A DNA stretch of 64,000 nucleotides from Acholeplasma hippikon. Lineage in GTDB: Bacteria > Bacillota_I > Bacilli_A > Acholeplasmatales > Acholeplasmataceae. A program made the translations under genes and the position numbers. A model generated the notes under the pieces. That model saw only the letters and a list, made by a program, of their open reading frames with translations. It was not told the origin of the DNA and searched no databases. Of this stretch, positions 13,491-52,603 are shown piece after piece (position 1 is the first letter of the stretch; the number at the start of each line of letters is the position of its first letter). The stretch is from contig NZ_LR215050.1 of assembly GCF_900660755.1 (NCBI RefSeq), forward strand, positions 806,001 through 870,000, read 5' to 3'.

Positions 13491-13500
13491 TTTTAACGAA

Positions 13501-28177: not shown

Positions 28178-28186
28178 GGCTACCTC

Positions 28187-29071: not shown

Positions 29072-29072
29072 C

Positions 29073-30002: not shown

Positions 30003-30014
30003 AAGATCCTTCTC

Positions 30015-32930: not shown

Positions 32931-32951
32931 GTTCACCTCATGAAAATGGCA

Positions 32952-32990
32952 TAACCTTCCTAGACCTTAAGGTAAGGTTTAGGAAGGTTA
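32952..32990 (-). promoter_or_regulatory. 17-bp intercistronic hairpin between two binding-protein genes
   Basis: TAACCTTCCTAGACCTT (32952-32968) pairs with AAGGTTTAGGAAGGTTA (32974-32990), with one G-T pair and a 5-nt loop. No T-run follows on the minus strand, so it looks like an mRNA-stabilising or processing hairpin or partial attenuator rather than a full terminator. Confidence 0.75.
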
Positions 32991-33007
32991 CTACCAAGTT
33001 CTTTTTT

Positions 33008-34753: not shown

Positions 34754-37063
34754 TTATCTCTTTCTGAATAGTAAGAATGCTCCGCCGAATGATGCTAAAG
34801 CTGAACCTACTGAGATACCTACTGTTGCACCAACGCCAACTTTACCTGAGTTATCTGCAGGTGGGTTGAATGAAGCTAATCTTTCTTCGATTAAAGCTTT
34901 TACTTGGTCTTCAGTTAATAATTTATCAATTTCTTTTTGTAATGGATTTTCAACTACTTCGATTTCAAATGTAACACTTGACGCATTTCCATTTCCATCT
35001 TCAACACCTACTACAACTGTGTATTTACCAGTCTTAGTTAAGTTTAATCCGCCGTTTGATTCAACGAATAAAGCTAAATTAGTATCGTAGTTGTCAAATG
35101 CTACAACGTTTGCGAAGATTGCATCGTTAACGTTTGTAAATTGTCCGATTTGAACTTTGAAAGTTTTGTTTACAGCAACAATAGTTGGAGCTGTGTGGTC
35201 AGTAACTTTTAATGTATAAGATGTCTTAGTTACGATATCTGTATCAAAGTCTGGAGTACCTACTACTGTTGGAGTGTATGTTACTACATCATCAACTTTA
35301 AGTGCTCTAGCAGCTGTTTGATGTGTGCTCACACCGAAGATAACAACGAATCCACCATCTTCAAATGTTAATCCTTCTAACCATGCTTTAACTTTTGCAC
35401 CTGAATCTAATTTTTCGCCACCAACAGTATCCCAGTTAGTTCTGTTAACAGATTTAACTAATTTACCATCTTTATCGAATTGCGCAATTGTAATACTTGC
35501 ATAAGCATCTGTATACACGAATGGCGCTGTGTATAAAGTTGTGAATGTTGAGTATGTTGTGTAGTTTTGGTTAATTCTGATATTTGTAATTTCAGTACCA
35601 TCTAAAACTAATTTAGCAGGAATATCTGGCACACCAGGGATATGAACATGATGAGTGAATTCTAAGTCAATCTTGTATTCACCTGGTTGTGGGTAATAAG
35701 GATTGAAGTTTTCAGGATATGAAATTACGATGTTTTTAGTCTTATCATTACCATAACCATCATCTGCAGTGATTAATCCTAATAAATCAATTGGTTGATC
35801 TTCTTTATGGAATCTGTTTGCAACATTCTTGAATTTAGGAGGCATAACCCCGATAACAACATCTACTTCAACTTCTTGTGCTTTTCCGTTAGGAATTTGA
35901 GCTTTGAATACTGCTTTATAACCAGCACCGAATACTGAAGAGTCAACTACTGTTACAGGACCTGAAGCAGTATATTTATCTGTTTCTGCATCGTATGCAT
36001 AGTCAATTGTTTCTAATAAATCTTCGCCTTTGTAAATTTCAACTACGAAAGGTAATTTAGTTGTTTTGTTGATAATCTTTCCATCTTCATCGAACATCTT
36101 AACGTATGATGCTGATAAGTTGTTAGGTAATGTGAATGTACCATTGAATTCAACAACTTTGTTGATACCTGGTGTTACAGCGTCATCATCCATTGATGAT
36201 ACACCTGCAAATACTGGAGCTTGTGTATCATATTCAAGAACTAAACGTCCTTCGAATTTATCAACAATCTTAGATGGCATTGTTCTAATTAATTTTTCAG
36301 TTGCAACGTTTGCTCCGTCTCTATCTTTTGTACCGAATGACCAAACAGTCCATCCTGCAGGGATGTGAACATAGTTTGGATTATCGTTTAAAATAGTTGA
36401 AACTAAAGCATCTTCTGTACCAACGTGATCGAAGTTAACCCATTGTAAGTTAACGATTGGTTCAAGAACATATCCTTGATCATCTTCGTCATCTGCCTTC
36501 ATACGGATAGAAGCTTCAACTTTAGTTACTTCTGGATCTGCAATTTCAGCTTCAGTTGCAAAACGGTAATCTGGTTCAGCAGTAGTTCCGTCATTAACAA
36601 GTTTGTACTTGTTTAATTGGTCTTCGAACATTACTAATTTACCAGTAGCATCAAAATATGCATAGTATCTGTGTACTACAGATGTGATATCTGTACGTGC
36701 ATTTGTTGTGCTAAGAATAAAGTCTTCTTCTGTGTCATTAATAATTACTTGCGCGAACGCGTTCCAAGATAAACTGCCTGATGTAATTTCACTTACTTCG
36801 ATATAACCATCGGCATTTTTGTCTTCGAAATCTTTAGCGTATCTTACGCCACCTCTTACCACGTGATATCTATGACCATCATAAATTACGTCCCAGTTAG
36901 AGTCCCCTACTAGCGTATTTCCTGGTTTTGCTGATGGACCATATAATGCACCTGGATCATCATATGGATATAAATCCACAAGTTCATCATCTGCTGCAAA
37001 AGTTGGAACAACTAATAATGCTGCAGACAATAACAACATAAATAATGCTGTAATTTTTTTCAT
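34754..37063 (-). CDS. Large surface protein with signal peptide, Ig/cadherin-like repeats and C-terminal anchor
   Basis: Protein of 769 residues. Signal peptide MKKITALFMLLLSAALLVVPTFA with cleavage after AFA/A-type sequence. The body is beta-rich; EDKNADGYIEVSE resembles a calcium loop, and HTAPTIVAVNKTFKVQIGQF...FDNYDTNLALFVESNGGLNLTKTGKYTVVVGVEDGNGNASSVTFEIEVVE is a DUF5011-type Ig-like repeat. The C-terminus has a glycine-rich membrane helix (VGATVGISVGSALASFGGAFLLF) and FRKR tail, with no LPXTG. It has its own strong promoter and terminator, so it is independently expressed. I do not recognise a catalytic domain. Confidence 0.72.
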   Translation of the reverse strand: MKKITALFMLLLSAALLVVPTFAADDELVDLYPYDDPGALYGPSAKPGNTLVGDSNWDVIYDGHRYHVVRGGVRYAKDFEDKNADGYIEVSEITSGSLSWNAFAQVIINDTEEDFILSTTNARTDITSVVHRYYAYFDATGKLVMFEDQLNKYKLVNDGTTAEPDYRFATEAEIADPEVTKVEASIRMKADDEDDQGYVLEPIVNLQWVNFDHVGTEDALVSTILNDNPNYVHIPAGWTVWSFGTKDRDGANVATEKLIRTMPSKIVDKFEGRLVLEYDTQAPVFAGVSSMDDDAVTPGINKVVEFNGTFTLPNNLSASYVKMFDEDGKIINKTTKLPFVVEIYKGEDLLETIDYAYDAETDKYTASGPVTVVDSSVFGAGYKAVFKAQIPNGKAQEVEVDVVIGVMPPKFKNVANRFHKEDQPIDLLGLITADDGYGNDKTKNIVISYPENFNPYYPQPGEYKIDLEFTHHVHIPGVPDIPAKLVLDGTEITNIRINQNYTTYSTFTTLYTAPFVYTDAYASITIAQFDKDGKLVKSVNRTNWDTVGGEKLDSGAKVKAWLEGLTFEDGGFVVIFGVSTHQTAARALKVDDVVTYTPTVVGTPDFDTDIVTKTSYTLKVTDHTAPTIVAVNKTFKVQIGQFTNVNDAIFANVVAFDNYDTNLALFVESNGGLNLTKTGKYTVVVGVEDGNGNASSVTFEIEVVENPLQKEIDKLLTEDQVKALIEERLASFNPPADNSGKVGVGATVGISVGSALASFGGAFLLFRKR

Positions 37064-37223: not shown

Positions 37224-40223
37224 TTATCTAACTGTACCTGGGATTAATACTTGGAAAGTACGTGATGAAGTTACACCATTTTCAGTAACTGTAATTGTAT
37301 AACTTACGTTTGTAGCTTTTTCTGGCATCTTCACGATACGACCTGTATGATCTAGTAAATCTGTATTATGAGATTCAAACATAATTTGTGCATTTGCATG
37401 TTCTGTAGCAATCTTATATTCAATATCTGCGAATAATTCGAAGTACTGAATTAATCCTGATGTAATTAATACATTTGGACAAATCTTTCCTGAGAAGTCT
37501 CTATGATATTTAAGATGTGTTCTTGGTAAATTCCAACGAACTAATGCTTCTGCAGCAAATTTAGCAGTTCTTTGCCATACTCTCCATAAGTCATCTGTTA
37601 AAGCAACTGATGTTTCAATACCAATACCATTACGGTTACCACCACCAGTGTATGAACCTTGACCTGGAAGGTTAGATCCATCACCAGCATGATAAGCTAC
37701 TTCATCTTCTGGGATGTGTTGATAAATATCAATATCATCAATTGTATAGTGCCAAGAAGTATTTAATACAGTTCCGCTATTTGCGTGTTGTAGTAAATAG
37801 TTAGCATGTGATAATGCTGAACTCGATGAATCTGTATTTGCAGTATCATGGATAATTACCCAATAAACATGTTTATCGTTATATCTTGGTAATCCAGCAG
37901 GAATTGGATTTCTAGAAGATCCTGGGCGAATTCCATTTGAAACTGGAACCATTTTTGTATCATTCACAACTAATTCATCAAAGTAATATCTAGAAACACT
38001 TTCATATTGTGTAACAGTGTAAGTTAAACCAACACCGCTTGCTGTATATGTGAATGCTTCAGTAAATGCTACCTGGTTAACTGTTAAGAAATCTAATAAA
38101 CTATTTTGTGAATCTAATGATGAATAGAATGTTGCATAGTACTCCGCGATCACATGATGGTCTGTTGCTAATTTAGCAGTGAATTTAACTTCACCCGCAC
38201 TTAAACTAGTTACTTTACCTGTGTTATCAATCGTTGCAACACTTGGGTTATTTGATTCAAAAATAACTTCTTCATTTTTTAATATATATGGGAATGGATT
38301 AGCTGTTAAACTGAATGGTTCTCCAACTAGTAAGCCTTGTTCCTTCTTAGAAGGAGTTAAATCAATACCAGGATCTGTTGTTACACTAATTTCCATTGGT
38401 GTATTAATTGAAGTGTTTGCACTTAAACGTGCAGTAATTGTTGCAAGTCCACTCTTCTTACCTTCTAATGTACCGTTGTTAGATACCATTAAAACTTCTG
38501 CGTTTGATGTAATAAATCTAACAAGTGCAGTTGTTTCATATGGTAAGAATTCCCATGATAAACGATATGAATCATTTACTCTAATTTCATCGATGCCGTT
38601 TGTTACTAAGATTTTTAATGGTTGACCATCAATCACTTTATTTTCAGCAGTAATTGACGCTTTAGTTTCATAATTACCTGCTAAATATCTTTGAGAAATA
38701 TTAACAAACTTGTTTAAGTCTAAGTCTATTGTTCCCCAATAGTTTAATGTGAAATCAAAGTCACTTCCTTGGTAAGCCTTTGCAGCAAACTCAGTATAAT
38801 TTTCCACTGAGTTAAAACGTGCATAACCTAATTTTAATTTTTGTTTTGTTTGTACATCAAAACCAACTTTAACAGTTGATACATTATTACGTGTAATCAT
38901 GACAATCGAATTAGTTTCAATATCGCCATCCATTTTCACTGCTGTTTCAACATTTGAAATTGTGTTTTTATGAATCGTTACATTGCCATCTTTTAAATCA
39001 ACTAATTCAATTGCAGCTTTTGCTACTTGATTGAATGTGTTTGATTCAATTGTTACATTGCTAACTTTTTCTAATCTAATTGCTGCAACTTGTGCAGTAA
39101 TATTTTCAAACTTATTGTTCTTTAATGTAATGTTAGAGATATCTTCATTTGCTTCAACTGAGCCGTTTTGAGCAAATGAAAGGTTAGAAATGGAAACATT
39201 TGAAGAACTTAGTGTTAAACGTGCTTTCATTGTTGCGCCAGTTTGACCGATAATTTCAACAAAATCATCTTTTACTGTTGCTTCACTTTCGTAGTTACCA
39301 GCAAATACGTGTACTTTTGTACCTTCTAATGTGTTTCTTAATGCTTCATCTAAAGTCGCGAATAATTTGTCACCAAAGACAAATTCTAATCCGTCTTGTG
39401 TTACTTTATCACCACTTACTTTAGTTGCATCAACAATGATTATATTCTTAACAACTACAGTCTTCTTAGCGGAAATTTCTTCATCGTTTGCTAACTTAAC
39501 TGTAAATTCTACTAAACCCTCTTTTAAGAAACTAACCATTCCAGTTTCTGAAACTTTTGCGATAGTTTCATCTGATGATTCATAAATGAATAATCCTGAT
39601 GCATTTTCAGGTGCATTAAGAATTCCTAATTGCTTAAGCGTACCTGCATTATGTACATCAGCAAAGTCAATTACTAATTCAGATAATGCTTCAATAACAG
39701 TGACGTTAATACTTGCTTTAACATTAGCATTTTTTGCAGATTGAATTGTAATTATTGCGGTCCCAACAGAAACAGCCGTTAATAAACCTGTGTTATTTAC
39801 AGTGACTGCTGATGAACTTGAAGTAAATATTACATCATCATTTGCGGTGTAAATTAATTGATAAGTCGACCCCTCAAACAATGGACTTTCTACTTCTTTA
39901 ATCGAAACTAAATATTCTTTAGTAACTGTAACTGCCACTTCTTTAAAGACTTTACTGTTTGATTTTGCTTCAACTTTGATTTTTGTTTCGCCTACTGCAA
40001 CAGCTGTGATTAAACCTGATTCAGATACGGTTGCAATTGAAGCATTGTTGCTTGTTATAATATAACCTTCTTCATCAGTTGTTGTAATTGTGAGTTGTTC
40101 AGTTTGCCCAACTTGCAATGAAACTGATGATGTATTGACTGTGACTTCAACAGATGTTTTTTCACAGGCAATTAATACGATGAAACTAAGCATCACTGTA
40201 ATGAACAATAATGTTCTTTTCAT
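37224..40223 (-). CDS. Surface lipoprotein amidase: BIG2 Ig-like repeats, beta-helix segment and N-acetylmuramoyl-L-alanine amidase domain
   Basis: About 999 residues from the ATG at 40223, chosen because AGGAGGGG lies just upstream; the frame to 40271 lacks this. The signal peptide ends in lipobox LIAC. BIG2-like repeats (ASIATVSESGLITAVAVGETKI and relatives) occupy the first part and recur near the middle; a right-handed beta-helix-like stretch (ISNITLKNNKFENITAQVAAIRLEKVSNVTIESNTFN) lies between. The C-terminal amidase_2/PGRP domain has candidate zinc ligands His792 (VIIHDTA), His907 (KYHRDF) and Cys915 (KICPN). The enzyme family removes stem peptides from MurNAc, producing denuded glycan. 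Confidence 0.88.
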   Translation of the reverse strand: MKRTLLFITVMLSFIVLIACEKTSVEVTVNTSSVSLQVGQTEQLTITTTDEEGYIITSNNASIATVSESGLITAVAVGETKIKVEAKSNSKVFKEVAVTVTKEYLVSIKEVESPLFEGSTYQLIYTANDDVIFTSSSSAVTVNNTGLLTAVSVGTAIITIQSAKNANVKASINVTVIEALSELVIDFADVHNAGTLKQLGILNAPENASGLFIYESSDETIAKVSETGMVSFLKEGLVEFTVKLANDEEISAKKTVVVKNIIIVDATKVSGDKVTQDGLEFVFGDKLFATLDEALRNTLEGTKVHVFAGNYESEATVKDDFVEIIGQTGATMKARLTLSSSNVSISNLSFAQNGSVEANEDISNITLKNNKFENITAQVAAIRLEKVSNVTIESNTFNQVAKAAIELVDLKDGNVTIHKNTISNVETAVKMDGDIETNSIVMITRNNVSTVKVGFDVQTKQKLKLGYARFNSVENYTEFAAKAYQGSDFDFTLNYWGTIDLDLNKFVNISQRYLAGNYETKASITAENKVIDGQPLKILVTNGIDEIRVNDSYRLSWEFLPYETTALVRFITSNAEVLMVSNNGTLEGKKSGLATITARLSANTSINTPMEISVTTDPGIDLTPSKKEQGLLVGEPFSLTANPFPYILKNEEVIFESNNPSVATIDNTGKVTSLSAGEVKFTAKLATDHHVIAEYYATFYSSLDSQNSLLDFLTVNQVAFTEAFTYTASGVGLTYTVTQYESVSRYYFDELVVNDTKMVPVSNGIRPGSSRNPIPAGLPRYNDKHVYWVIIHDTANTDSSSSALSHANYLLQHANSGTVLNTSWHYTIDDIDIYQHIPEDEVAYHAGDGSNLPGQGSYTGGGNRNGIGIETSVALTDDLWRVWQRTAKFAAEALVRWNLPRTHLKYHRDFSGKICPNVLITSGLIQYFELFADIEYKIATEHANAQIMFESHNTDLLDHTGRIVKMPEKATNVSYTITVTENGVTSSRTFQVLIPGTVR

Positions 40224-40245: not shown

Positions 40246-43200
40246 TTATTTTTTCTTTTTAATTGAAACAATTAATGAAATTACAACAAGTACTAAGACT
40301 CCGGATACAGTTCCTGCAATAATAATCCCTAAAGTTGATTCTTCTCTTGGTTTCTCTGGATCAACTGGGTCTGTAGGATCGACTGGATCTACCGGATCAA
40401 TAGGAGCTTCGACTTTTGTTTGCCATGGTAAATCAGGTCTTTCAGTCCAGAAGTAATTATTTAATCTACTGATTGCTTGTGTTACAAATGTATGTTGACT
40501 ATTTAAAGTTTTGTATGAGAAGAATGAACTACCAACAATTTCTTCATATTGACTAATATATCTTAATTGTTCTAATAATTCATTTTGGTCTTTCCAGTTA
40601 TTTGAAGTTTCTGCATAACGGTAGAAACCATGACCAATAATTAAATCAACATTTGTATCTTTAACAACATCTACCCACCAATCTACTAAATCAGCAAATC
40701 TTGCTGTTGAGTGGTTAAACTCCCAATATAGTTGAGGCATAATATAGTGAACCCAACCTTCTTTTACCCATTTATAAGTGTCAGCATATTGTGCTGAATA
40801 ACTTGATAAACCTTGAGAATTTGAACCAAGTGGATCTTGTGATTTATTTCTCCAAATTCCAAATGGAGAAATACCAAATTTAATAAATGTATTTTTTTCA
40901 GCGTTATGTTCTTCAACCATTTCGAAGATTGTCTTCACTAATTCATTAACATTTTCTCTTCTCCAGTCATCACGAGATAATCCTTGCGGATTAAATCTTT
41001 GGAACTGTGTTTGGTCTTCAGCATTATTTGTGCCGTTATATGAATAGAAGTAATCATCAAAATGAATTCCATCAATGTCATATTTATTCATGAGTTCATC
41101 AACAATATTATATAAATATTGTCTTACAGATGGCTCACCAGGGTTTAAGATTAAGTAACCATTATTATCTTGCATTACATATTCTGGATTTAATTTCGCA
41201 AAGTTCTTAGATGATAAAGCATTTAATTGTGTTTGTTTATCACCAGCTGAACTTGATACACGATATGGATTCATCCATGCGTGGAATTCAATTCCATTTT
41301 TATGTGCTTGTTCAATGATATAAGCTAATACATCCCAACCAGGATTAATACCTTCTGCTCCGCCTAAATAGCGTGACCATGGAGCAAATTCTGATTCATA
41401 AAATGCATCATTCATTGGTCTGACTTGGAAGAACATTGCATTGAAGTTATTGTCTTTTAAAGTCTTAATAATCTTATCAATTTCTTCTTTATAAGCAACT
41501 TCTCCACGATGTTGAGGGATATCAATATTACTTACTGTAGATACCCAAACTGCTCTAAATTCTTCAGTTTTTTCTGTGTAAGTTGTAGGTAGTTCTACAG
41601 GGATGTTTGTGTTGTAATAGAAAACGTTTTGACCGTTTCTAATCACGTATGGATTATTCTCATTATATGGAATATCCACACGAACAATTTTAGATTCTTT
41701 TTCACTTTGTTCTAAAGCTAAGTTTTGGCTATAAAACTCAATTGAATATGTACCATTGTTCTTAATCATAAATGGTTCAGTGTATTCTGTATAATTTGAC
41801 CAACTTGAACCATTATGGATACGATAGAATATTTTTTCTCCTTCTGCTGCACCTAGTGTAACTTTTACTTCAGATTTATAGTAGAAATCATCTAATGAAC
41901 CTTCAAGTTCAATTGTTGGAACACTCACTGGTGAAACGATTGTAAATTGTTTTACTAAAATGTTGCCGTTTGTTCCTGCACGATATTCAAACTTATATGT
42001 ACCTGGTGTTCTAAATTCTACTGGATCATTATATACAGTCCAAGCACCATTATTTATTCTATATTGTGTCGTTGATGTTTTCGGATCCAATGTAAGCTCA
42101 AGCCAAGTGTAATAAGGATCATTACCGTCACCAGCGACACCCAGTATAGGATCATTGGGAACATCAACTACTTTCACAAGCAAATCAATTTCATTAGATT
42201 CTGCTAAATTCTCATCGATTGTTTTTGCATAAATAACATAGTTACCATTGACTAATGTTGCATCATTTAACTTGAATGGTCCTGTATATAATGTCCATTC
42301 ATTTATTGATTGTGAACCATGATTATATTTGTAGTAAATTTGAGCGCCATTTGAAGTAATTGTTACCTCTGCTCCAACTTGATAGTTATTTCCTACCTTT
42401 GTACCATTTACTTTAATTAAAGGTACATCATTGTTGACTTGATTAATAATAAACTGTCGTGAAACGATTTGCGAATCTTCACCATTTTCAGTTGCTTTAA
42501 ATGCGATTATATGTGAACCATTCTTCTTCACTTGAATTGGCGCTGTATAAGCTTGCCATGGTTCTCCGTCTAAACTATATGTAATTGGGTTTGCACTTGT
42601 TAACGTAATGGTAACTGCTGAAGTATATTCAGCACCATTTAAGGTACCTTGAAGATTAATCGAAGGTGCTACTACATTTGAGTTATAAGTTAAACCTAAA
42701 TGATTTGTTTGTGATAATGCTCTTACGCCATATTCGTAATTTGAACTATTATCACCTGTTTGATATGTCATTTGTGCAATATCTTTATGTCCCACCACAC
42801 CAACGATTTGTTCATTACCATATGATAAACCTGAATTTGAGCGATAAATATAATAGAATTTAGCTCCAGGTATTGTATCAAATGTTAAGGTACCATTTGA
42901 ATGACTAATATTTTCAACAGCCGGTAAAATAACTGGCTCAAAACTCTTTAATGGTGCTAAAGGAACTTTCGTATTTAGGTAATTATTTTTAGCATTATTC
43001 ATGTTACCTGTAACCGCAGTACCTGCGCCATTATACGCACTTAACATCGTGTTATATGAATATATACTGTGTCCATCGACATTTTCTAATGATTTTATTA
43101 GGTTAAGTTGTGTAGAGAATTGTGTTGTTGTGTTATACCATGAGTAGGCTGAACTATTTTCTGCCATGTATAAACCAATACCTGAATAAAGGTTAACCGG

Positions 43201-44298
43201 TAAATATTTAACAACTTTATTCCACCAAGTCATTAACTTGTCATAAGAACCTGCTGGATGGTCTGTTGCCCAATAAGATTGAGGCAGAATATAATCTAAC
43301 CAACCTTGTTTAATCCAATGTACAGTATCTGCAAATAAGTATGATGAATAGTGTGTTTGACCTGTTGTTTGTGAGCCGGTTGTAATTGGCATACCATTTT
43401 GGTCATAAGTAACTTCACCATTACCATTTTTCCAAATACCTGTTGGAGCAATACCAAATTGAACATAGCGACCATTTGCAGCATTATAAGCTTTAATCGA
43501 GTTACTTACCATTTCGATAAGTTTGTTAACTTGTTCTCTTCTCCAGTTAGCTTTATCAGTAGCACTGTTTGTATTATAACCTTGACCATATTGAATAAAT
43601 GTTTGTTGGTCTGGTTCAGTTAAAATTGTTGTTGCACCTGATGTTGCACCATTTGCACCCATATTGATATAGAAGTAATCATCAAAGTGAATTGCATCCA
43701 CATTATAGTTTTCTAATACTTCTTCAATTGTCGCTACAATATGCTCTCTAACTGCTGGAATCCCGGGGTTAAGAATTGCATTTGAGCCTGCGGTTAAAAT
43801 ATTTGCTGAATTGCTCTGTGGATTTGCTGCTGGGATTGACCCTGAAATTTGACCACCACTTGTACTTAGACGATATGGATTAAACCACGCGTGAAATTCA
43901 AATCCACGACGGTGTGATTCTTCGATTAACCATGCCATTGGATCAAATGTGTTAAAGTTAACATTTGCAAACCAACTCGCTTTAGGGTTAATTTCTGATT
44001 TATATAACGCATTATTGTGTGTTCTAAAGTGAATAATAATTGCGTTATAGTTGTAATATGATAAAACATCTAAAATCTTTGTTGCTTGTGATTTAAAAGT
44101 TGCTTCAGTTGTATAACTCGGAAGTGAAGAAATCCAATGTGATACCCACGCTGCTCTAAACTCCCCATTTTGTTCTGTTGTGATCGATGTTGGCAACAAC
44201 GCTTCAGCTTCTTCAACAACTGTAGCGTTCGTTTTTGGAACGCCAATTGAGAATGCCAGGAGTGCCAAGGTGATTAAGATTGAAAATTTCTTTATCAT
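40246..44298 (-). CDS. Surface protein with two GHL10 (DigH/YddW-like) glycosidase domains
   Basis: Protein of 1350 residues with a signal peptide and a C-terminal membrane helix (GIIIAGTVSGVLVLVVISLIV, KKKK tail) preceded by PVDP repeats. GHL10 domain 1 (about 45-430) shows EFRAAWVSHW, EFHAWFNPYRLS and DAIHFDDYFY; domain 2 (about 905-1300) shows EFRAVWVSTV, EFHAWMNPYRVS and DGIHFDDYFY. Between them are about 450 residues of FN3-like and chitobiase-C-like (YSLDGEPWQAYTAPIQVKKNGSHIIAFKATENG) modules. The E. coli GHL10 protein DigH cleaves denuded peptidoglycan glycans, which pairs logically with the amidase encoded 22 nt downstream. Confidence 0.88.
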   Translation of the reverse strand: MIKKFSILITLALLAFSIGVPKTNATVVEEAEALLPTSITTEQNGEFRAAWVSHWISSLPSYTTEATFKSQATKILDVLSYYNYNAIIIHFRTHNNALYKSEINPKASWFANVNFNTFDPMAWLIEESHRRGFEFHAWFNPYRLSTSGGQISGSIPAANPQSNSANILTAGSNAILNPGIPAVREHIVATIEEVLENYNVDAIHFDDYFYINMGANGATSGATTILTEPDQQTFIQYGQGYNTNSATDKANWRREQVNKLIEMVSNSIKAYNAANGRYVQFGIAPTGIWKNGNGEVTYDQNGMPITTGSQTTGQTHYSSYLFADTVHWIKQGWLDYILPQSYWATDHPAGSYDKLMTWWNKVVKYLPVNLYSGIGLYMAENSSAYSWYNTTTQFSTQLNLIKSLENVDGHSIYSYNTMLSAYNGAGTAVTGNMNNAKNNYLNTKVPLAPLKSFEPVILPAVENISHSNGTLTFDTIPGAKFYYIYRSNSGLSYGNEQIVGVVGHKDIAQMTYQTGDNSSNYEYGVRALSQTNHLGLTYNSNVVAPSINLQGTLNGAEYTSAVTITLTSANPITYSLDGEPWQAYTAPIQVKKNGSHIIAFKATENGEDSQIVSRQFIINQVNNDVPLIKVNGTKVGNNYQVGAEVTITSNGAQIYYKYNHGSQSINEWTLYTGPFKLNDATLVNGNYVIYAKTIDENLAESNEIDLLVKVVDVPNDPILGVAGDGNDPYYTWLELTLDPKTSTTQYRINNGAWTVYNDPVEFRTPGTYKFEYRAGTNGNILVKQFTIVSPVSVPTIELEGSLDDFYYKSEVKVTLGAAEGEKIFYRIHNGSSWSNYTEYTEPFMIKNNGTYSIEFYSQNLALEQSEKESKIVRVDIPYNENNPYVIRNGQNVFYYNTNIPVELPTTYTEKTEEFRAVWVSTVSNIDIPQHRGEVAYKEEIDKIIKTLKDNNFNAMFFQVRPMNDAFYESEFAPWSRYLGGAEGINPGWDVLAYIIEQAHKNGIEFHAWMNPYRVSSSAGDKQTQLNALSSKNFAKLNPEYVMQDNNGYLILNPGEPSVRQYLYNIVDELMNKYDIDGIHFDDYFYSYNGTNNAEDQTQFQRFNPQGLSRDDWRRENVNELVKTIFEMVEEHNAEKNTFIKFGISPFGIWRNKSQDPLGSNSQGLSSYSAQYADTYKWVKEGWVHYIMPQLYWEFNHSTARFADLVDWWVDVVKDTNVDLIIGHGFYRYAETSNNWKDQNELLEQLRYISQYEEIVGSSFFSYKTLNSQHTFVTQAISRLNNYFWTERPDLPWQTKVEAPIDPVDPVDPTDPVDPEKPREESTLGIIIAGTVSGVLVLVVISLIVSIKKKK

Positions 44299-44300
44299 GC

Positions 44301-45512
44301 CTATACCTTCTTCCCGTTTAATAATTGCTTAACTAAATCCATACCAGGTCTTGTTGGACCCTCTTCAATAAATGTTTTGTATGTAAAAAAACAATTTCCC
44401 TTCACTGTTTCATGTTGATTCGCAAACTTAAGTTGATTAACAACTTCATATTTATTTTCATATCCACCTTCACTACCTAATCGATATGCACCGTGACCAA
44501 TGTATAAATCAACGTTTGTGTCTTTACATAATTCTACCCACCACTCAAGTAAATCACCATATGGTGCAATTGGATGAGCAAAGTCCCAATATAATTGTGG
44601 AATGATGTAATCAATATAGCCATTTTTTACCCATTCATAACTATCTGCATATTGATTATCATAGCTTTGTGAACACTTAATATCTGTGTTAGAACCTCTT
44701 GGATCATTTGGTTTATTCTTCCAAATACCAAATGGTGAAACACCAAATTTTTTCGTAGGATAATTTGTCTTAATTAAATCATGCATGTCTTTAATCACTT
44801 CCGTGATTTGGTTTCTTCTAAATTGATCTAAATCGATTGTTTTATCCGTTCTTGCTTCAAAATCAGCTAAGTCATTATCTGTATCTGATAAACCTGCATA
44901 TGGATAGAAGTAATCATCAAAGTGAATACCAGCCACATCATAATTTTCTAAAATTTCAAGCATTGATTGTTTAATAAATTCTTTTACTTCTTTCTTCGCC
45001 GGATTTAGGATGATTAATCCGTTTTTATCTGTAACTGTAAATTCCGGATGAATTTTTGCGAAGTTTAAATCATCACATTCTGCTAGATATTCTGATTTAG
45101 TTAGTGGAGTTTTCATTGAAACACGATATGGATTACACCATGCATGTACTTCAATGTTATATTTCTTAGCTTCTTCTAAAACATATGCTAAGACATCAAA
45201 TTCAGGAGCTACCCCTTCTTTTCCTGTTAAGAATCTTGAATATGGATTGAGCTTAGAACGGTAAAATGCATCGTTAGTCGTTCTTACTTGGAAAAAGATT
45301 GTATTGATGTTATACGCTTTTGCAGTTTCAAACATTTCTTTGATTTTGTTTTTATAGTTTGGGTCTGTTACTTTAGGTAAATCAATGTTCACAACATTTG
45401 ATACCCAAAATGCACGCATTGGTTTTAATTTAAAATCTTCAGGTATTTCAATTTGAATATCTGTTTGATAGTAATTTAAAGGCAAGTTTGTTTTATAGTT
45501 AACTAATTTCAT
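44301..45512 (-). CDS. Single-domain GHL10 protein, apparently cytoplasmic
   Basis: Protein of 403 residues and a close relative of the two domains in the next gene: KPMRAFWVSNVVNIDLP, EVHAWCNPYRVS, AGIHFDDYFYPYAG and DLYIGHGAYRLGSEGG all align. It has no signal peptide or membrane helix, which is unusual for GHL10, and lies between genes for cytoplasmic enzymes (GH4, AnmK) and secreted ones. It probably processes imported glycan oligomers. It overlaps the GH4 gene by 4 nt and the start of the next gene follows after 2 nt. Confidence 0.85.
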   Translation of the reverse strand: MKLVNYKTNLPLNYYQTDIQIEIPEDFKLKPMRAFWVSNVVNIDLPKVTDPNYKNKIKEMFETAKAYNINTIFFQVRTTNDAFYRSKLNPYSRFLTGKEGVAPEFDVLAYVLEEAKKYNIEVHAWCNPYRVSMKTPLTKSEYLAECDDLNFAKIHPEFTVTDKNGLIILNPAKKEVKEFIKQSMLEILENYDVAGIHFDDYFYPYAGLSDTDNDLADFEARTDKTIDLDQFRRNQITEVIKDMHDLIKTNYPTKKFGVSPFGIWKNKPNDPRGSNTDIKCSQSYDNQYADSYEWVKNGYIDYIIPQLYWDFAHPIAPYGDLLEWWVELCKDTNVDLYIGHGAYRLGSEGGYENKYEVVNQLKFANQHETVKGNCFFTYKTFIEEGPTRPGMDLVKQLLNGKKV

Positions 45513-46807
45513 TTTTTATATTCTCCGTAATATCCTAGATGTGATTTATTTTTCTCATATAATGCATCAAACGCTTTTTTTGTTTGTTTAAATGATGTTG
45601 TATGTGGGTGATTTTGGAAAGCCATTAATGCTTTATTGATGTTCTTCTCATAAATTGCATCCACCAATAATTCTTCATAAGATTTCACATGTTGAATAAC
45701 CCCTCTGATTTGTAGAGGTAATCGTCCAATATGTACGGGTAATGGCCCACGGTCGGTGATTCTACATGTAATCTCAATTGCACAATCTTCTGAAAGGTCT
45801 GTAATATGACCTCTATTTATGGTGTCTAAAACCATATATTCTTTTGAGTTATTATGAATACCTGAAATAATATCTAGACATTGTAATGAATAGTCTTTAC
45901 CATTTCTTAACTTCATTAACTCAGGATCATAATCATTTGCTAAATTGCTGTAGTGATCAAATAAAGTCTTTTCAACTTTCATAACTTCGTTTGCTCTAAT
46001 TTTTCCATTTTTAATATCGTTTAGATAATCAGCTAAAATTTCATCATAGTTGATATAATAATCAAAATCGATATGTGGATAAGTTTCTAGGTTCTTTAAA
46101 TATGTTTTATCGTATTTAAATTTTTGAAGCATTTCATCATTCTTTAAAATCTTTGGTAACCAATCTTTGTGATTCCAGTAAAGATTTGTCACAAATGATA
46201 AGTGGTTAATCCCTGCAAAGTAAGGAATGATTTCTTCTTTTGGTGCACCAAGTGCTTCAGCTAAATCGTTTGTAATTTGTACTGGGTCTGAACATACACC
46301 GATGAAGCGGTCAAACTCTGAATATCTAAAGATTGCTTCACTAATAATCCCAGTAGGGTTAGTTACATTTAATACCCAAGCCTGAGGACAAACATCTTTC
46401 ACATCTTCAATAATGTCAAAGATAACTGGAACTGTACGAAGTGCATTGAATAGTCCCCCAATACCAAATGTTTCATGTCCCAGTAATCCGTATTCTGCTG
46501 GAAGTGTTTCATCATATAATCTTGATTCCATTTTTCCAACTCTAATTTGAATCACAACATAATGTGAATCTACTAAAGCCACTTTACGGTTGGTACTGTA
46601 TGTTAAATTAATTTTTAATTTTGCTTTATCTAGCATTTGTTTAGAAAAATCATAGATTGTTTTTAAATGTTTTTCATTATTTTCTAAATCAATCAACATC
46701 AGTTCTGTTACAGGTACATTTTTATAAAACTTGATAACGTTGTATACAAATTCCGGAGTATATGAACTTCCTGCACCGATGATTGAGATTTTTAATTTTT
46801 TGGGCAT
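45509..46807 (-). CDS. Glycoside hydrolase family 4 (6-phospho-beta-glucosidase-like)
   Basis: NAD- and metal-dependent hydrolase of 432 residues: KISIIGAGSSYTPEFVYNVI (Rossmann fold), WVLNVTNPTGIISEA, GVCSDPVQITNDLA (metal-binding Cys) and GINHLSFVTN (metal-binding His). These match the 6-phospho-beta-glucosidase branch. GH4 enzymes act by an oxidation-elimination mechanism on 6-phosphorylated glycosides. In this context the substrate may be a phosphorylated amino-sugar disaccharide, but that is inference. Its TGA stop overlaps the ATG of the GHL10 gene, direct evidence for the standard genetic code. Confidence 0.87.
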   Translation of the reverse strand: MPKKLKISIIGAGSSYTPEFVYNVIKFYKNVPVTELMLIDLENNEKHLKTIYDFSKQMLDKAKLKINLTYSTNRKVALVDSHYVVIQIRVGKMESRLYDETLPAEYGLLGHETFGIGGLFNALRTVPVIFDIIEDVKDVCPQAWVLNVTNPTGIISEAIFRYSEFDRFIGVCSDPVQITNDLAEALGAPKEEIIPYFAGINHLSFVTNLYWNHKDWLPKILKNDEMLQKFKYDKTYLKNLETYPHIDFDYYINYDEILADYLNDIKNGKIRANEVMKVEKTLFDHYSNLANDYDPELMKLRNGKDYSLQCLDIISGIHNNSKEYMVLDTINRGHITDLSEDCAIEITCRITDRGPLPVHIGRLPLQIRGVIQHVKSYEELLVDAIYEKNINKALMAFQNHPHTTSFKQTKKAFDALYEKNKSHLGYYGEYKK

Positions 46808-46819: not shown

Positions 46820-47968
46820 TTATTTATAAAACGATATGCTTCCTGTAATAACTGATTTTTTTGCACCTGTTGTACTTTTTAGTGTTGCCGGTTTATGCTT
46901 AATTGCTTGATTGCCTAAGATAATGAAGGCAAGTGCTTCTTTAAAGTCACTATCAAGTTTTAATTCTGTTGTTGTTAAAACTTCAATACCATCTAAGTTA
47001 TTTCTTAGTTCATCCATAATAAAGTCATTATGAATTCCTCCACCAGCGACAATTAACTGATCAATTTGAAATCTGTTTAACACAAACCTTTTAATCGCAT
47101 CAATCATTGTAAATGCACTGGCTTTAGTTAATGTATGAACAATATCTTCTTTCTTTTCTTCTTCGTATTTATCAAGAATTTTTTGAGTATAATCTACACC
47201 AAACTGTTCTCTACCACATGATTTAGGGGGCATTTTCCCTAAGTATGGGTGGGTAATTATTTCTTCAAATAATGCTTTGATTAACTTTCCAGATTTCGCA
47301 ACCTTACCATGGTCATCATATGATTTTTGAAATAAAACTTCCATCGCATAATTAATCATCATGTTGCCTGGACCAGTGTCAAAGGCGTAAGTATCTTCTT
47401 CCTTCATACCGTTTGGTAAAACAGTTATATTGCTGATACCCCCAATATTTTGTAGAATTCTTGAAGTCTTCTTAGAACCATAGAGTAAGAAATCGACAAA
47501 TGGAACTAAGGGGGCACCTTGACCACCTTGCGCCATGTCTGCTGCTCTAAAATCTGTAATCACTGTTGTTTGTAAAAGTTGTGCCATTACTGGACCTGAA
47601 CCAAGTTGAAGTGTTGAAGGTAAAAAATTTTCATCCTTTGCACCTTGGTGATAAACTGTTTGTCCGTGAGATGCCACAAAGTATAAATTTTTTGTATCAA
47701 TATTCACTTCTTTAGCTAGTTTTAATACACAGTCTGCATAGACTCTAGCAAGTGAGAAATTCAAGTCTGATACTTCACTGACATTCATTTGATTCAGAGT
47801 TGCCTTTTTAATCTTTACCAGTAAATCATCTGGATAAGGGAAAGTCTTTCCTGCAATTTGATTTATTTTTGTATGTTTACCGAATCCTTTAATTTCCGCA
47901 AAGGCAACATCAATACCATCTAAAGAAGTACCGCTCATAATGCCTGCTGCAATTTTTCTCTTTAACAT
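46820..47968 (-). CDS. anmK: Anhydro-N-acetylmuramic acid kinase
   Basis: Opens and phosphorylates 1,6-anhydro-MurNAc to MurNAc-6-phosphate, the substrate of MurQ. Length 382. Motifs: AGIMSGTSLDGIDVAFAEIKG (ATP site), FVASHGQTVYHQ, ITDFRAADMAQGGQGAPLVPFVDFLL, and LIVAGGGIHNDFIMDEL. No signal peptide. First gene of the upstream transcription unit (anmK, GH4, GHL10, GHL10x2, amidase) behind a palindromic operator. Its presence implies that lytic, anhydro-forming cleavage products are consumed. Confidence 0.95.
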   Translation of the reverse strand: MLKRKIAAGIMSGTSLDGIDVAFAEIKGFGKHTKINQIAGKTFPYPDDLLVKIKKATLNQMNVSEVSDLNFSLARVYADCVLKLAKEVNIDTKNLYFVASHGQTVYHQGAKDENFLPSTLQLGSGPVMAQLLQTTVITDFRAADMAQGGQGAPLVPFVDFLLYGSKKTSRILQNIGGISNITVLPNGMKEEDTYAFDTGPGNMMINYAMEVLFQKSYDDHGKVAKSGKLIKALFEEIITHPYLGKMPPKSCGREQFGVDYTQKILDKYEEEKKEDIVHTLTKASAFTMIDAIKRFVLNRFQIDQLIVAGGGIHNDFIMDELRNNLDGIEVLTTTELKLDSDFKEALAFIILGNQAIKHKPATLKSTTGAKKSVITGSISFYK

Positions 47969-48000: not shown

Positions 48001-48042
48001 ATTATACTTTAAGTTGCTTACATATATATGTAAGCGCTATTA
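48001..48042 (-). promoter_or_regulatory. anmK promoter with 20-bp perfect palindrome and cre-like box
   Basis: GCTTACATATATATGTAAGC (48016-48035) is a perfect palindrome lying over the -35 area; TATAAT on the minus strand is at 48006-48001. TGTAAGCGCTATTA (48029-48042) matches the cre consensus with one mismatch and overlaps the palindrome, so two regulators may compete here. Confidence 0.65.
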
Positions 48043-48106: not shown

Positions 48107-48952
48107 TTATCGCTTATATTTCTTAATTGTTCGATATGTCTCTTCCAGCGCTTGGACTGAACGGTCAATATCTAAGTAAGCACACTTAGCAAATAACGCA
48201 TCAATCACTGACATTTGAGAGATACGTGAAGTCATCGCAGCTGATCTAAAATCACTTTCCAGACTTGAAGTATATAATACAACATCTGAAAGGTCAGCTA
48301 AAATTGATGAACCCACTTTAACAACTGAGATAATTGGTGTTTTATTTTCTTTAGCAAGTAGTGCTGCAGAAATAATTTCCTTTGTTTTACCTGAGTTTGA
48401 TACGAAGACAATTACATCTTTAGCATTTGTAAATGAAGCATCCACGATTTGGTCATGTGACTCACCTTGAGAAATCGCGAACTTATTAATTCTTCTTAAC
48501 TTCATTTCTAAGTCTTTACATACTAAGTACGAAGAACCTTTACCAAAGATAAGAATTTTTCTTGCATTCATGATTAAAGATGCAGCTTTAGTGTAGTTCT
48601 TTTCATCATAAAGTTTGATTGTTTCTTCTAACGCTCTAATATTATTTTCAATTGCCTTTTTACCAGAGTTTTGATCTTTAATTAAGATAATATCTTTATA
48701 CTCTGCTGTCTCTGGAATTTCAACTTTAGAATTAGATAAAATAAAATCAATTTTAAAATCTTTAAAACCTTTATAACCTAACTTTTTGCACATTCTCACA
48801 ACGCTTGCTGGAGACGTATAAGCAGCCTCGGCAATTTTTTCCACACTAAAATCCTTGAGAGTTGCCTTGTTCTCAATTAAGTAATCAAGGACAACACGCT
48901 CAGCCATACTAAGTACTTCTTTATTTTTTAGCATATTTAACATTACACTCAT
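48107..48952 (-). CDS. RpiR/MurR-family transcriptional regulator
   Basis: Regulator of 281 residues. The N-terminal HTH_6 domain (about 1-75) contains FSVEKIAEAAYTSPASVVRMCKKLGYKGFKDFKIDFIL. The C-terminal SIS sugar-phosphate-sensing domain (about 110-270) has ILIFGKGSSYLVCKDLEMKLRRI and DVIVFVSNSGKTKEIISAALLAKENKTPIISV. MurR of this family senses MurNAc-6-phosphate. It lies directly upstream of anmK, transcribed as its own unit, and is the obvious candidate for control of the cluster. Its own promoter carries a cre-like box, so it may be under carbon control. Confidence 0.9.
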   Translation of the reverse strand: MSVMLNMLKNKEVLSMAERVVLDYLIENKATLKDFSVEKIAEAAYTSPASVVRMCKKLGYKGFKDFKIDFILSNSKVEIPETAEYKDIILIKDQNSGKKAIENNIRALEETIKLYDEKNYTKAASLIMNARKILIFGKGSSYLVCKDLEMKLRRINKFAISQGESHDQIVDASFTNAKDVIVFVSNSGKTKEIISAALLAKENKTPIISVVKVGSSILADLSDVVLYTSSLESDFRSAAMTSRISQMSVIDALFAKCAYLDIDRSVQALEETYRTIKKYKR

Positions 48953-49047: not shown

Positions 49048-50451
49048 TTATACGATTTTTTTCGGATTTAAGATGTATTTTGGATCAAACACTTGTTTAA
49101 TGCCGCGCATTAACATAAGTTGCTCATCTCCTAAGAGTTTATGCATGTAGGATTTCTTCGCAAGGCCAATTCCGTGTTCTCCAGAAACTAGTCCTCCTAA
49201 TTCAAATGCTTTTGAATAAAGACGGTCAAATCCTTCTTTAACTCTTTCTTTCCACTCTTCATCTGATACATTATCTTTACATAAGTAGATGTGTAAGTTA
49301 CCATCTCCAATATGTCCAAAATATGGGATTCTTACGTTCATTTCCTCACTTACCTTACGTACGTGAGCAAAGAATTCAGAGATGTTTGAACGTGGTAAGA
49401 CAACATCACATTCATCAATGAAGTCACTTGATGCTTTGATTGCTTCTAAGAATCCACCACGAACGTTCCAAATATTACTACGTTTTGATTGTGCATCAAC
49501 AACAAATGCCTCTAATGCACCATACTCTTTTAATACTAATTTTTCTACATAAGCTAAATCACGATTTAATGCTTCTTCATCATTTGCATCATAGCTTAAT
49601 AATAAGTATGCATTAAAGTGATCATTTTCAATTGTTTTACCAAAGAATGCTTCACTATATCCTAGTGCTTGTTTTTCAAAGAATTCTACAGCTGTAGGTA
49701 AAACATAATCTTTAATTAATCTTGGAGATGCCTCAATGGCTTTTTCTCTATTTTCAAACGCTACTAATAAACTCTTAGAGAATCTAGGTTTTGGAATTAA
49801 TTTAAGTGTTGCAGTTACAATAACAGCCAAAGTACCTTCACTACCAATAATCAAATCTTTTAGGCCATAACCTGTTGAGTTTTTTACAACCTTACTACCA
49901 AATGTTAATAATTCGCCTTTAGGAGTTACAACTTCTAATGCTCTAACCCACTCTCTTGTTGTTCCGTATTTGATTGCACGCATTCCACCTGCATTGGTAG
50001 ATATATTACCACCAATTGATGCTAACTTTTGACCTGGGTCCGGTGCATAGAATAATCCCTCTGGTTCTACACACTCATAAATTTCATATAATTTAACACC
50101 TGGTTGTACAGTTAGTGTTAGGTTAGTTTTGTCTAACTCTAAAATTTTATTCATTGGTGTCATATCCAAAAGGATACCACCTAAAACAGGAACAGCACCA
50201 CCAACTAAACCTGTACCTGCACCACGTACAGTGACTGGAATAGTTTCTTCATATGCATATTGCATCACTTTTTGAACAACAAATTTATCAGTTGCTAAAA
50301 CAACAACCTCAGGATAACTAATTGCTGTACCTAGTTCATCATGTGAATATTTTTCATGAATATCATCTTTGAATTTGATATTTTCTTTACCAGCAATTTG
50401 GATAAGTTGATCCACATCTTGTTGATTTATCTTTTTATAGCTTGAATTCAT
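49048..50451 (-). CDS. FAD-binding oxidase, GlcD/D-lactate dehydrogenase type
   Basis: Protein of 467 residues. The FAD_binding_4 domain shows VVVLATDKFVVQKVMQYAYEE, VTVRGAGTGLVGGAVPVLGGILLDM, and GLFYAPDPGQKLASIGGNISTNAGGMRAIKYGTTREWV. The C-terminal FAD-oxidase domain has IPYFGHIGDGNLHIYL (His/Asn site) and ELGGLVSGEHGIGLAKKSYM. Such enzymes oxidise D-lactate or glycolate. D-lactate fits well because MurQ in the neighbouring operon produces it. It follows the phosphodiester glycosidase gene by 24 nt. Confidence 0.87.
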   Translation of the reverse strand: MNSSYKKINQQDVDQLIQIAGKENIKFKDDIHEKYSHDELGTAISYPEVVVLATDKFVVQKVMQYAYEETIPVTVRGAGTGLVGGAVPVLGGILLDMTPMNKILELDKTNLTLTVQPGVKLYEIYECVEPEGLFYAPDPGQKLASIGGNISTNAGGMRAIKYGTTREWVRALEVVTPKGELLTFGSKVVKNSTGYGLKDLIIGSEGTLAVIVTATLKLIPKPRFSKSLLVAFENREKAIEASPRLIKDYVLPTAVEFFEKQALGYSEAFFGKTIENDHFNAYLLLSYDANDEEALNRDLAYVEKLVLKEYGALEAFVVDAQSKRSNIWNVRGGFLEAIKASSDFIDECDVVLPRSNISEFFAHVRKVSEEMNVRIPYFGHIGDGNLHIYLCKDNVSDEEWKERVKEGFDRLYSKAFELGGLVSGEHGIGLAKKSYMHKLLGDEQLMLMRGIKQVFDPKYILNPKKIV

Positions 50452-50475: not shown

Positions 50476-52008
50476 TTATGCTAATTGTCTCATCAAGTCT
50501 AATATTTTTTGTACATCTTGCTTGTGAATATTGTATGTAAACACTTCTGAGTAATCTGAAGATGCAGTTGTACCATCACCTTTAACTTTAACTTGAATTT
50601 CATATGAACCAGCATTTAATAATAATGACATTGACTCCTTTGTTAAGTAAGTTTCACGACCATTAATCTTTAATACATAACTTGCATGTTCATTATTTCC
50701 TACAAAGTGTAATACGCCTTCATCATCTACATAAACACCTGTTGGAGCGTTAAATTTATCTCTTGTATCTGGATAAGGAATTGGAGTAAATACCGGTTCA
50801 TAATCACCTTTAACAAATAATAAACCGTTTGAAATTGAACGCATGCGTCCATCTGATAATTGGTTTAGTGTTTTTAACTCTAATGTTTCTGCATCTCTTA
50901 ATAACATTGTTGAAGATCCACCACCATCAAGGTTGTAAGCTTCTACTGCATTTAAGGCTTTCATTAAGTGTGCAAACTCATTTAGTTTTAATCCGACTCT
51001 ACCGCTAGCACCATCTCTACCGTCTACAACAACGAAGAAAATCGTACCATCTGCTAACACACCCATACCAGTTCTTGGGTTACGTGTAGGTGCACTTGAG
51101 TGATTGAATGTTGTTTGAACAACGCCACCTTTAACTAATGCATCGCCCATACCAATAGCAAATCTTGTGTTTTCAAAACCATTACCTAATAATTCTTGAA
51201 CAATGATTTGATCGGTTGAAGTAATTAAATTTTCATCTTGAAGTGCTTTACCTACTAAAACGAATTCTCTTTCTTTAACTGTATATGCTTCAGTTGTTCT
51301 TTGTAACATTGCACCTTTAGCATATTGTACAGTTGAACCTGCAACTTTAATATCTGAAGATTTAACAATTACTTTTGGTAATCCCGCAGGAATCTCAAGT
51401 TTATATGAATCATAGAATACTGCTAATTCAATATCACTTGCAGGTAATGCATTTGTTTTATTGATCTTAATTCTTTGTTTTAATTCTTTATCCGCATTTA
51501 AAATGTTTAAATGTTGTCCTAAGAATGTTGGTTTACCAAATACGACAGAACCATCATCTAAGAAACCTGCTGCAGTTTGATTTGTAGAACCTTTATTGAT
51601 AACTTCAAAGTTAGTCACATGAATATTTGATGGTCTACCTGTGTTATTAATATCGTAGAAGTCCGCATTTACTCCACCAGCAACATGTAATTGTGAGTAC
51701 TTATTCATTGTGTTTTCAACATGATAAGTTAGTGGTTGCATCGAATATGTATATGGACTATATCCATCTGATGCAATCACTTTATAAGGAGTTGTCTTTG
51801 TGTTTACACCAATATATGAAAATACTTGAGGTTGTTTATCACCATTAAGTGACATATTGGCAACCGCTTTAATTTGACGAATACCATCATAATATACGTT
51901 TTCTCTTGAAACGTATTCTAAAACAAACTCATCAGCTGCATGCACATATGGAGCAACTGAAATAATTGCGAAGAATGCTAAGAAGATTGCTATAAATAGT
52001 TTTTTCAT
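50476..52008 (-). CDS. Secreted phosphodiester glycosidase (NAGPA domain)
   Basis: Protein of 510 residues with a signal peptide ending VHA (about residue 24). The NAGPA/DUF2233 domain occupies about 90-390: LHVAGGVNADFYD, FAIGMGDALVKGG, APTRNPRTGMGVLADGTIFFVVVDGRDGASGRVGLKLNEFAHLMKALNAVEAYNLDGGGSSTM. Related enzymes release N-acetylglucosamine or other sugars from phosphodiesters. A short beta domain follows at the C-terminus (VLHFVGNNEHASYVLKINGRETYL). In this cluster it could trim sugar-phosphate polymers attached to cell walls, which is inference. One nucleotide separates it from the lipoprotein gene upstream. Confidence 0.85.
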   Translation of the reverse strand: MKKLFIAIFLAFFAIISVAPYVHAADEFVLEYVSRENVYYDGIRQIKAVANMSLNGDKQPQVFSYIGVNTKTTPYKVIASDGYSPYTYSMQPLTYHVENTMNKYSQLHVAGGVNADFYDINNTGRPSNIHVTNFEVINKGSTNQTAAGFLDDGSVVFGKPTFLGQHLNILNADKELKQRIKINKTNALPASDIELAVFYDSYKLEIPAGLPKVIVKSSDIKVAGSTVQYAKGAMLQRTTEAYTVKEREFVLVGKALQDENLITSTDQIIVQELLGNGFENTRFAIGMGDALVKGGVVQTTFNHSSAPTRNPRTGMGVLADGTIFFVVVDGRDGASGRVGLKLNEFAHLMKALNAVEAYNLDGGGSSTMLLRDAETLELKTLNQLSDGRMRSISNGLLFVKGDYEPVFTPIPYPDTRDKFNAPTGVYVDDEGVLHFVGNNEHASYVLKINGRETYLTKESMSLLLNAGSYEIQVKVKGDGTTASSDYSEVFTYNIHKQDVQKILDLMRQLA

Positions 52009-52009
52009 C

Positions 52010-52603
52010 TTACTTTACCTCCGGTAATTGAACACTTGATTGTCCAACATTAGAAATTGTTAGTGTCACACTATATTTAGTTCCATCAACAGTAATTGAG
52101 AATGAAATCTTATCCAAACTGTTTGTGTTGAAATCTAATTGAACATTTTCAATCTTTGCATCACTACCAGCAATTAAACTGAAAGATTCTAATGCATCGT
52201 ATTGATCGTATTTTAGTAAGTAACTTCCATTTGATTCAGTAAACATTTCATAAGTAAATTTGTAGTAGAAATCTCTTTCCTTCTTAGCGACTTCTTTTAC
52301 TTCAAAGCCACCTAATATTTGTGTATATACTTTAGTCTTAGATCCACTGTGATCGTAGAATGCTACATAACTACCATCTTGATATTTTGTTTTATTGCCA
52401 TCAAACACCATATTAACGATTGTTGAATCAAGCGTTTGATAGTCATAAATTGATACTTCCATAGCGTAATTATTAGCACCCGCTAAAAAACTCATTTTGT
52501 TTTCAAATGCTACTTTGTTCTCATCAACTGATTCTTTTGTCTTCTTACAAGCAACTAAACCAACGACAAGTACAAGCATTAAAACATACCATACTTTTTT
52601 CAT
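52010..52603 (-). CDS. Small lipoprotein of unknown function
   Basis: Protein of 197 residues, signal peptide MKKVWYVLMLVLVVGLVAC with lipobox LVAC. The mature part looks like an all-beta LolA/LppX-like half barrel (MSFLAGANNYAMEVSIYD, FDGNKTKYQDGSYVAFYDHSGSKTKVYTQ), but no family is certain. First gene of the unit lipoprotein-NAGPA-FAD oxidase. Confidence 0.75.
   Translation of the reverse strand: MKKVWYVLMLVLVVGLVACKKTKESVDENKVAFENKMSFLAGANNYAMEVSIYDYQTLDSTIVNMVFDGNKTKYQDGSYVAFYDHSGSKTKVYTQILGGFEVKEVAKKERDFYYKFTYEMFTESNGSYLLKYDQYDALESFSLIAGSDAKIENVQLDFNTNSLDKISFSITVDGTKYSVTLTISNVGQSSVQLPEVK

Follow-up and report, generated by a model that had tools for sequence, protein, structure and literature searches.

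A 64,000-nucleotide stretch of the Acholeplasma hippikon genome (contig NZ_LR215050.1, positions 806,001 to 870,000; hereafter the window, whose numbering is used throughout) contains a gene island that probably encodes a peptidoglycan-utilisation system. Since this bacterium has no wall, the substrate would be foreign peptidoglycan, cut outside the cell and finished inside. At the centre of the island, on the minus strand like all of its genes, two neighbours encode three GHL10 domains: an exported, anchored protein of 1350 residues with two of them (40246..44298), and a signal-less protein of 403 residues with the third (44301..45512). An earlier note, made from the sequence alone, had read this arrangement as a two-stage attack, outside and then inside. 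The catalytic core and the signal split on which that reading relied both hold, and the surrounding genes likewise divide into exported and cytosolic sets. Its premise that GHL10 proteins are normally exported was too strong, because the signal-less form is a conserved clade, found also in relatives with wall genes.

GHL10 domains and their active sites

The three domains score 171-225 bits against a PF02638 cut-off of 27.9. In the long protein, two stretches match PF02638 (whole-protein E-value 7.4e-114), and domain 1 (residues ~45-450) is separated from domain 2 (~912-1292) by a chain of beta-sandwich (Ig/Fn3-like) modules. The short protein matches PF02638 at 3.6e-61 and the Cwp19 structure 5oq2 at 3.7e-79. 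A genome-wide PF02638 search found only these three strong GHL10 domains; a fourth candidate, at C1:362457, scored 20.8 bits, below the cut-off, and was excluded from the count. As the earlier note had described, all three share the HAW-NPYR and IHFDDYFY motifs, located at positions 136 and 203 (domain 1) and 1006 and 1078 (domain 2) of the long protein and 123 and 196 of the short protein. The long protein is a tandem surface protein with modules between its domains, bearing an N-terminal signal and a C-terminal transmembrane (TM) segment followed by a KKKK tail, and the short protein is encoded immediately upstream. The modules had been described as carbohydrate-binding-like. Their only family matches are to Fn3_assoc and OmpL47-like domains, and Foldseek relates them to Ig/Fn3-like stalks; on sequence and model, the linker is best described as Ig/Fn3-like, with carbohydrate binding not demonstrable.

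In the Cwp19 structure paper, Asp196 is put forward as catalytic, perhaps together with Arg132, in a pocket that also includes W36, Q77, W127, D195, Y197, S250, Q295, Y297, G328, F367, and S368 (PMC5765458). Checked against Cwp19 for loss of catalytic residues, all three domains keep Asp196, Arg132, and Trp127. Domain 2 of the long protein keeps 13/13 pocket positions, and the short protein 12/13, its one change (S368T) being common to its whole clade. Domain 1 keeps 10/13, including D196 and R132, with the changes Q77H, S250A, and F367Y. None of the three therefore looks obviously dead: the retained Asp/Arg core rules out reading them as degenerate, while the altered pocket of domain 1 may mean that its specificity differs. 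A natural inactivated domain does occur in genome G006 (L047:8932-12165), where domain 2 of the long protein lacks the catalytic D196 and other pocket residues.

Predicted localisation of the two proteins

The signal peptide expected of an exported GHL10 autolysin or division enzyme is present on the long protein and absent from the short protein and its clade. We considered whether a signal on the short protein had been missed, and found an in-frame stop just upstream of the ATG. Its stop-to-stop frame is 404 residues for a protein of 403, leaving no space for an overlooked signal peptide. In relatives, where signals were called by a hydropathy measure and not by a trained predictor, the N-terminus of each long protein is strongly hydrophobic. 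The segment preceding the domain in their short proteins is not signal-like, and all examined members of the short clade lack a signal; the highest hydropathy values among them (e.g. L063) stem from sequence that precedes the likely ATG.

Other bacteria are known to export proteins that have no signal peptide, and a short GHL10 protein that left the cell by such a route would have no inside step. We consider this very unlikely, given that all short members lack a signal and the adjacent exported protein always has one, and that the NamZ and NagZ enzymes of the island are likewise signal-less. By their predicted signals, the NAGPA-domain enzyme, the amidase, the double GHL10 protein, the DUF5696 protein, and the binding proteins are exported or anchored. 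The short GHL10 protein, GH4, AnmK, NamZ, GH3, the sugar kinase, MurQ, NagB, and the GlcD-like oxidase are cytosolic by their predicted N-termini.

A wall-less host and a conserved island

Family searches, on which all gene absences in the host rest, found no match to MurC, MraY, the FtsW/RodA family, or a penicillin-binding protein (PBP) transpeptidase in the A. hippikon genome (G000, 99.46% complete), and detected all four in walled control genomes. Recycling of the cell's own wall is thereby ruled out. Peptidoglycan gene loss in this order has been described earlier (PMC10868615).

By tblastn, the island is collinear over ~38 kb in five genomes of the same genus and, with small losses, in G010, G033, G052, and G011 (a short contig), making nine other genomes in total. 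A rearranged version is present in G021, a genome with murC-like, mraY, and transpeptidase genes. The scan for related loci returned one locus only. Across the order, AnmK was found in 36/150 genomes, all 36 of which also encode GHL10, and PBP transpeptidase is absent from 35 of these 36, the exception being G021 (raw counts, ignoring kinship). Among the small genomes of genus g8 listed, none has AnmK, GHL10, or PBP transpeptidase.

History of the GHL10 domains

The trees were quick ones, with the Shimodaira-Hasegawa-like approximate likelihood ratio test (SH-aLRT) as their only support. In the first, built from 86 GHL10 domains, the short proteins group in a single clade (27 rows, SH-aLRT 99), ruling out that the short protein is a truncated copy of the long one. 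The short-plus-long pair recurs in many genera, in most of which the first and last domains of the long protein nest together. A second tree places domain 1 of the window's genus within a separate exported GHL10 family with support of 100 (loci L107-L114). Members of that family are ~500-1125 residues long, are encoded elsewhere in related genomes, and mostly have H at Cwp19 position 77. Domain 1 was apparently replaced within this genus by a copy from that family, and the trees do not support a simple tandem duplication giving rise to the three domains.

The signal-less protein is also present in f9 genomes with PBP transpeptidases (L100, L102, L106) and in G021 (L074). The f9 genomes rule it out as a mark of wall-less life and indicate that it arose before wall loss or independently of it.

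These distributions bear on a less probable, though plausible, explanation: that the island was retained from the recycling locus of a walled ancestor and now serves only soluble turnover fragments, the muropeptides shed by neighbours, with the surface enzymes trimming soluble glycans and leaving intact walls unattacked. The related locus in G021 and the signal-less GHL10 of the f9 genomes are both in keeping with such an origin, and E. coli DigH, another GHL10 enzyme, works on denuded strands (PMC12288456). Against it, the island pairs a double-GHL10 surface protein with an exported amidase lipoprotein, suggesting attack on the polymer, and Cwp19 lyses whole Micrococcus cells (PMC5765458, PMC6016235).

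Proposed pathway

AnmK, GH4, the short and double GHL10 proteins, and the amidase appear to form one operon because the gaps between their genes are small or overlapping: 12 bp between AnmK and GH4, an ATGA-type overlap between GH4 and the short GHL10 gene (whose start overlaps the GH4 stop, AATGA), 2 bp between the short and long GHL10 genes, and ~22 bp between the long gene and the amidase. The amidase gene (37224..40223) encodes a lipoprotein (lipobox LIAC) with Big_2, beta-helix, and C-terminal Amidase_2 domains (PF01510 4e-16; XlyA 3hmb 7.5e-17). Its start is probably the ATG at 40223 behind AGGAGGGG, a classical lipoprotein start, and the listed TTG at 40271 is probably wrong.

We propose that this lipoprotein removes stem peptides from foreign peptidoglycan, and that the double GHL10 protein, held off the membrane by its Ig/Fn3-like modules, cuts the glycan strands by either Cwp19-like lytic transglycosylation or DigH-like hydrolysis. 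Cwp19 releases muropeptides ending in 1,6-anhydro-N-acetylmuramic acid (1,6-anhydroMurNAc) and fragments ending in unsubstituted reducing MurNAc (PMC6016235), and DigH cleaves the denuded strands that amidases leave behind (PMC12288456). By analogy, either activity would fit a surface amidase combined with a double GHL10 protein. Of the solved structures, that of Cwp19 is nearest to the short GHL10 protein, and the type of product made by Cwp19 would lead to the substrate of AnmK, which supports the proposal. An exported NAGPA-domain phosphodiester glycosidase (50476..52008; signal segment; PF09992 1.5e-32) may strip linked polymers; our guess is that it cuts the N-acetylglucosamine (GlcNAc)-1-phosphate link tying wall teichoic acid to MurNAc.

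Glycan oligomers would then enter through the substrate-binding proteins and permeases of the island. The presence of GHL10, NamZ, and NagZ in the cytosol makes most sense if oligomers, and not only monosaccharides, are imported. Once inside, they would be shortened by the signal-less GHL10 protein, with MurNAc and GlcNAc removed by a NamZ-family exo-beta-N-acetylmuramidase (19651..20781; both domains matched, PF07075 8e-80 and PF20732 5e-45) and a NagZ-type GH3 beta-N-acetylglucosaminidase (18087..19658; PF00933 1e-99; nearest structure 6k5j, B. subtilis YbbD/NagZ). The anhydro-MurNAc kinase AnmK (46820..47968; NF007142, 499 bits, above cut-off) likely acts on anhydro ends, and a MurK-like BadF-type sugar kinase (17198..18094; PF01869; nearest solved structure the MurNAc/GlcNAc kinase 8zo3, E 1.1e-22) on reducing MurNAc, to give MurNAc-6-phosphate and also GlcNAc-6-phosphate. 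The GH4 enzyme (45509..46807; PF02056/PF11975; 1s6y 6.8e-87) would cleave a 6-phospho-disaccharide. Its closest structures are 1s6y, 5c3m, and 1up6, ahead of alpha-type enzymes, and because it is of the 6-phospho-beta-glucosidase type, a phosphorylated disaccharide is suggested as a pathway intermediate.

The MurNAc-6-phosphate etherase MurQ (16282..17196; TIGR00274, 380.6 bits), NagA, encoded elsewhere in the genome, and the glucosamine-6-phosphate deaminase NagB (15079..15801; TIGR00502, 270.5 bits), all above their curated cut-offs, are proposed to complete the conversion to fructose-6-phosphate and D-lactate. MurNAc catabolism requires MurQ and, as a source of MurNAc-6-phosphate, AnmK, MurK, or a phosphotransferase transporter (MurP); the island provides MurQ, with AnmK and the MurK-like kinase as sources.

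The exported enzymes might instead lyse living neighbours, killing competitors or releasing their contents, with the sugar pathway secondary. Their anchoring at the surface and the immunity of a wall-less producer to its own enzymes speak for such antagonism, and the wall-less rumen relative Anaeroplasma bactoclasticum is reported to be bacteriolytic. We nevertheless think it unlikely, as genes for uptake and cytosolic catabolism, accompanied by a MurR/RpiR-type regulator, make up most of the island, a better fit to feeding.

The least probable explanation that we weighed is that the substrate is another amino-sugar polymer, such as chitin oligomers or host or plant glycans, and that the MurNAc genes are incidental. 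GH3, GH4, NagA, NagB, and ATP-binding cassette (ABC) importers do also serve chitin or glucan use. However, AnmK, MurQ, and NamZ, all encoded in the island or its operon, act specifically on muramic acid sugars, in the case of AnmK on the anhydro form, and an N-acetylmuramoyl-L-alanine amidase is encoded in the same operon as AnmK. In favour of another polymer, DogH, a Deinococcus protein discussed together with GHL10, reportedly acts on starch (PMC9967864).

That report also weighs against peptidoglycan utilisation itself, GHL10 not being uniformly a peptidoglycan family, and several further points do the same. In manure slurry, Acholeplasma took the leading part in the early uptake of 13C from dead E. 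coli, which speaks for the proposal, but the study ascribed this uptake mainly to released nucleic acid precursors, amino acids, and peptides and not to sugars of the wall (PMC4628116). The island is missing from some wall-less relatives, and the signal-less GHL10 protein is present in relatives that have wall genes, so that this trait is not tied to wall loss. Finally, no ATPase for the island's permeases was identified.

Other genes of the island and its surroundings

Between the NamZ gene and the amidase lies a block of uptake and membrane genes (20774..34573), collinear in relatives and assigned from Pfam and NCBIfam matches, with DUF624/MusI-like, DUF5696, Yip1, and NHL proteins among its products. 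It includes four permeases (21418, 22406, 28187, and 29073), a lipoprotein substrate-binding protein with an Ig domain (33008), and an anchored substrate-binding protein of 973 residues (30015-32936), in which the family match begins at about residue 580 and the N-terminal 550 residues have no counterpart in Pfam. The DUF5696 protein (23344-25953) has an N-terminal TM or signal segment and is conserved in the island copies read; its AlphaFold model (mean pLDDT 59) is too poor to assign. Next to this block is a collinear gene for an exported, C-terminally anchored surface protein of 769 residues (34754..37063), with signal and TM segments and no Pfam match.

Upstream of AnmK, the island encodes a MurR/RpiR-family regulator (HTH_6 and SIS domains; 48107..48952), 85-93% identical within the genus, and a GlcD-like flavin adenine dinucleotide (FAD) oxidase (49048..50451), assigned from Pfam, which is a possible D-lactate dehydrogenase (TIGR00387 lies under its cut-off). 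Beyond the NAGPA-domain gene is a small lipoprotein (52010..52603; lipobox LVAC), collinear and with no Pfam match. At the downstream end is a ROK-like protein (13706..15064; Pfam ROK 5e-6), collinear in five same-genus genomes and a possible regulator or kinase.

cre-like palindromes (e.g. TGTAAGCGCTATTA) precede four transcription units of the island, at 34651-34664, 48029-48042, 49006-49019, and 52703-52716; the number of such operators in the window is not clearly above chance, being reached by 7/100 shuffles. Between the island and the next gene (13307-13705, minus strand) is a 26-codon open reading frame (ORF) that would yield a very basic peptide (MIMGKKRKSTHLKKNQRKHAILTRKR); a terminator-like hairpin comes after it. 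Further away, at 5074-9029, a substrate-binding protein, two permease-size ORFs, and a TOBE-type ABC ATPase stand in a row, an arrangement resembling spermidine/putrescine systems.

Implications and comparison with known systems

Wall-less bacteria are usually regarded as degenerate parasites living on host nutrients. The evidence is evenly poised on a broader proposal, that Acholeplasma and its relatives, including A. laidlawii, are specialised eaters of bacterial walls, combining cutting at the surface, ABC-type oligosaccharide import, and finishing by a cytosolic GHL10 enzyme. If true, this would be peptidoglycan use with import at the oligomer stage, and wall loss would have accompanied, or at least permitted, a niche of consuming the walls of other bacteria without risk of self-lysis. 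It might also account for the rapid uptake by Acholeplasma of carbon from dead bacteria in manure slurry. The island would then make the system accessible to genetics in a cultured model strain, and would give biochemistry a GHL10 enzyme that is cytosolic and predicted to act on an oligosaccharide.

Among characterised loci, the murQ-murR-murP-amiE-nagZ-namZ locus of Bacillus subtilis shares with the island the MurQ, amidase, NagZ, and NamZ families and a MurR-type regulator. B. subtilis exports the amidase, NagZ, and NamZ and takes up free MurNAc through a phosphotransferase system (PTS). In the island, by contrast, NamZ and NagZ are signal-less and the importers are of the ABC type, which fits oligomer import, and GHL10 and AnmK are added.

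Two characterised GHL10 enzymes differ from the proteins described here in setting. Cwp19 of Clostridioides difficile is a lytic transglycosylase of the same TIM-barrel family (PDB 5oq2/5oq3; PMC6016235, PMC5765458), to which the present domains are 40-43% identical. It is an exported autolysin of the bacterium's own wall with a single GHL10 domain, whereas A. hippikon has a double-domain surface protein, a separate signal-less enzyme, and no wall. DigH (YddW) of E. coli also belongs to GHL10 and works on glycan strands that amidases have denuded (PMC12288456), but it is a division enzyme with a signal sequence and is 31-36% identical to the domains here.

We found no earlier description of this locus in a search that did not reach the main A. 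laidlawii and A. brassicae genome papers, and neither peptidoglycan nor muramic acid comes up in the main text of the A. oculi genome paper. In one passage, a promoter study of A. laidlawii lists 'catabolism of cell wall components' among regulated functions, with ACL_RS01290 as a regulator of murein metabolism (PMC5138195); its main text gives no gene set, GHL10 pair, or mechanism. Hepatoplasmataceae and Spiroplasma (PMC10928387, PMC3563533), which are also wall-less, are predicted users of the wall sugars of other bacteria; the excerpted parts of those accounts describe only monosaccharide uptake by a MurNAc PTS, and no wall-cutting or oligomer-processing enzymes. Tannerella forsythia likewise scavenges exogenous muropeptides and employs a MurNAc kinase (PMC10465942, PMC7670621). 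It does, however, have a wall, which it rebuilds as a MurNAc auxotroph, whereas A. hippikon, having none, can only catabolise the sugars or put them to other uses.

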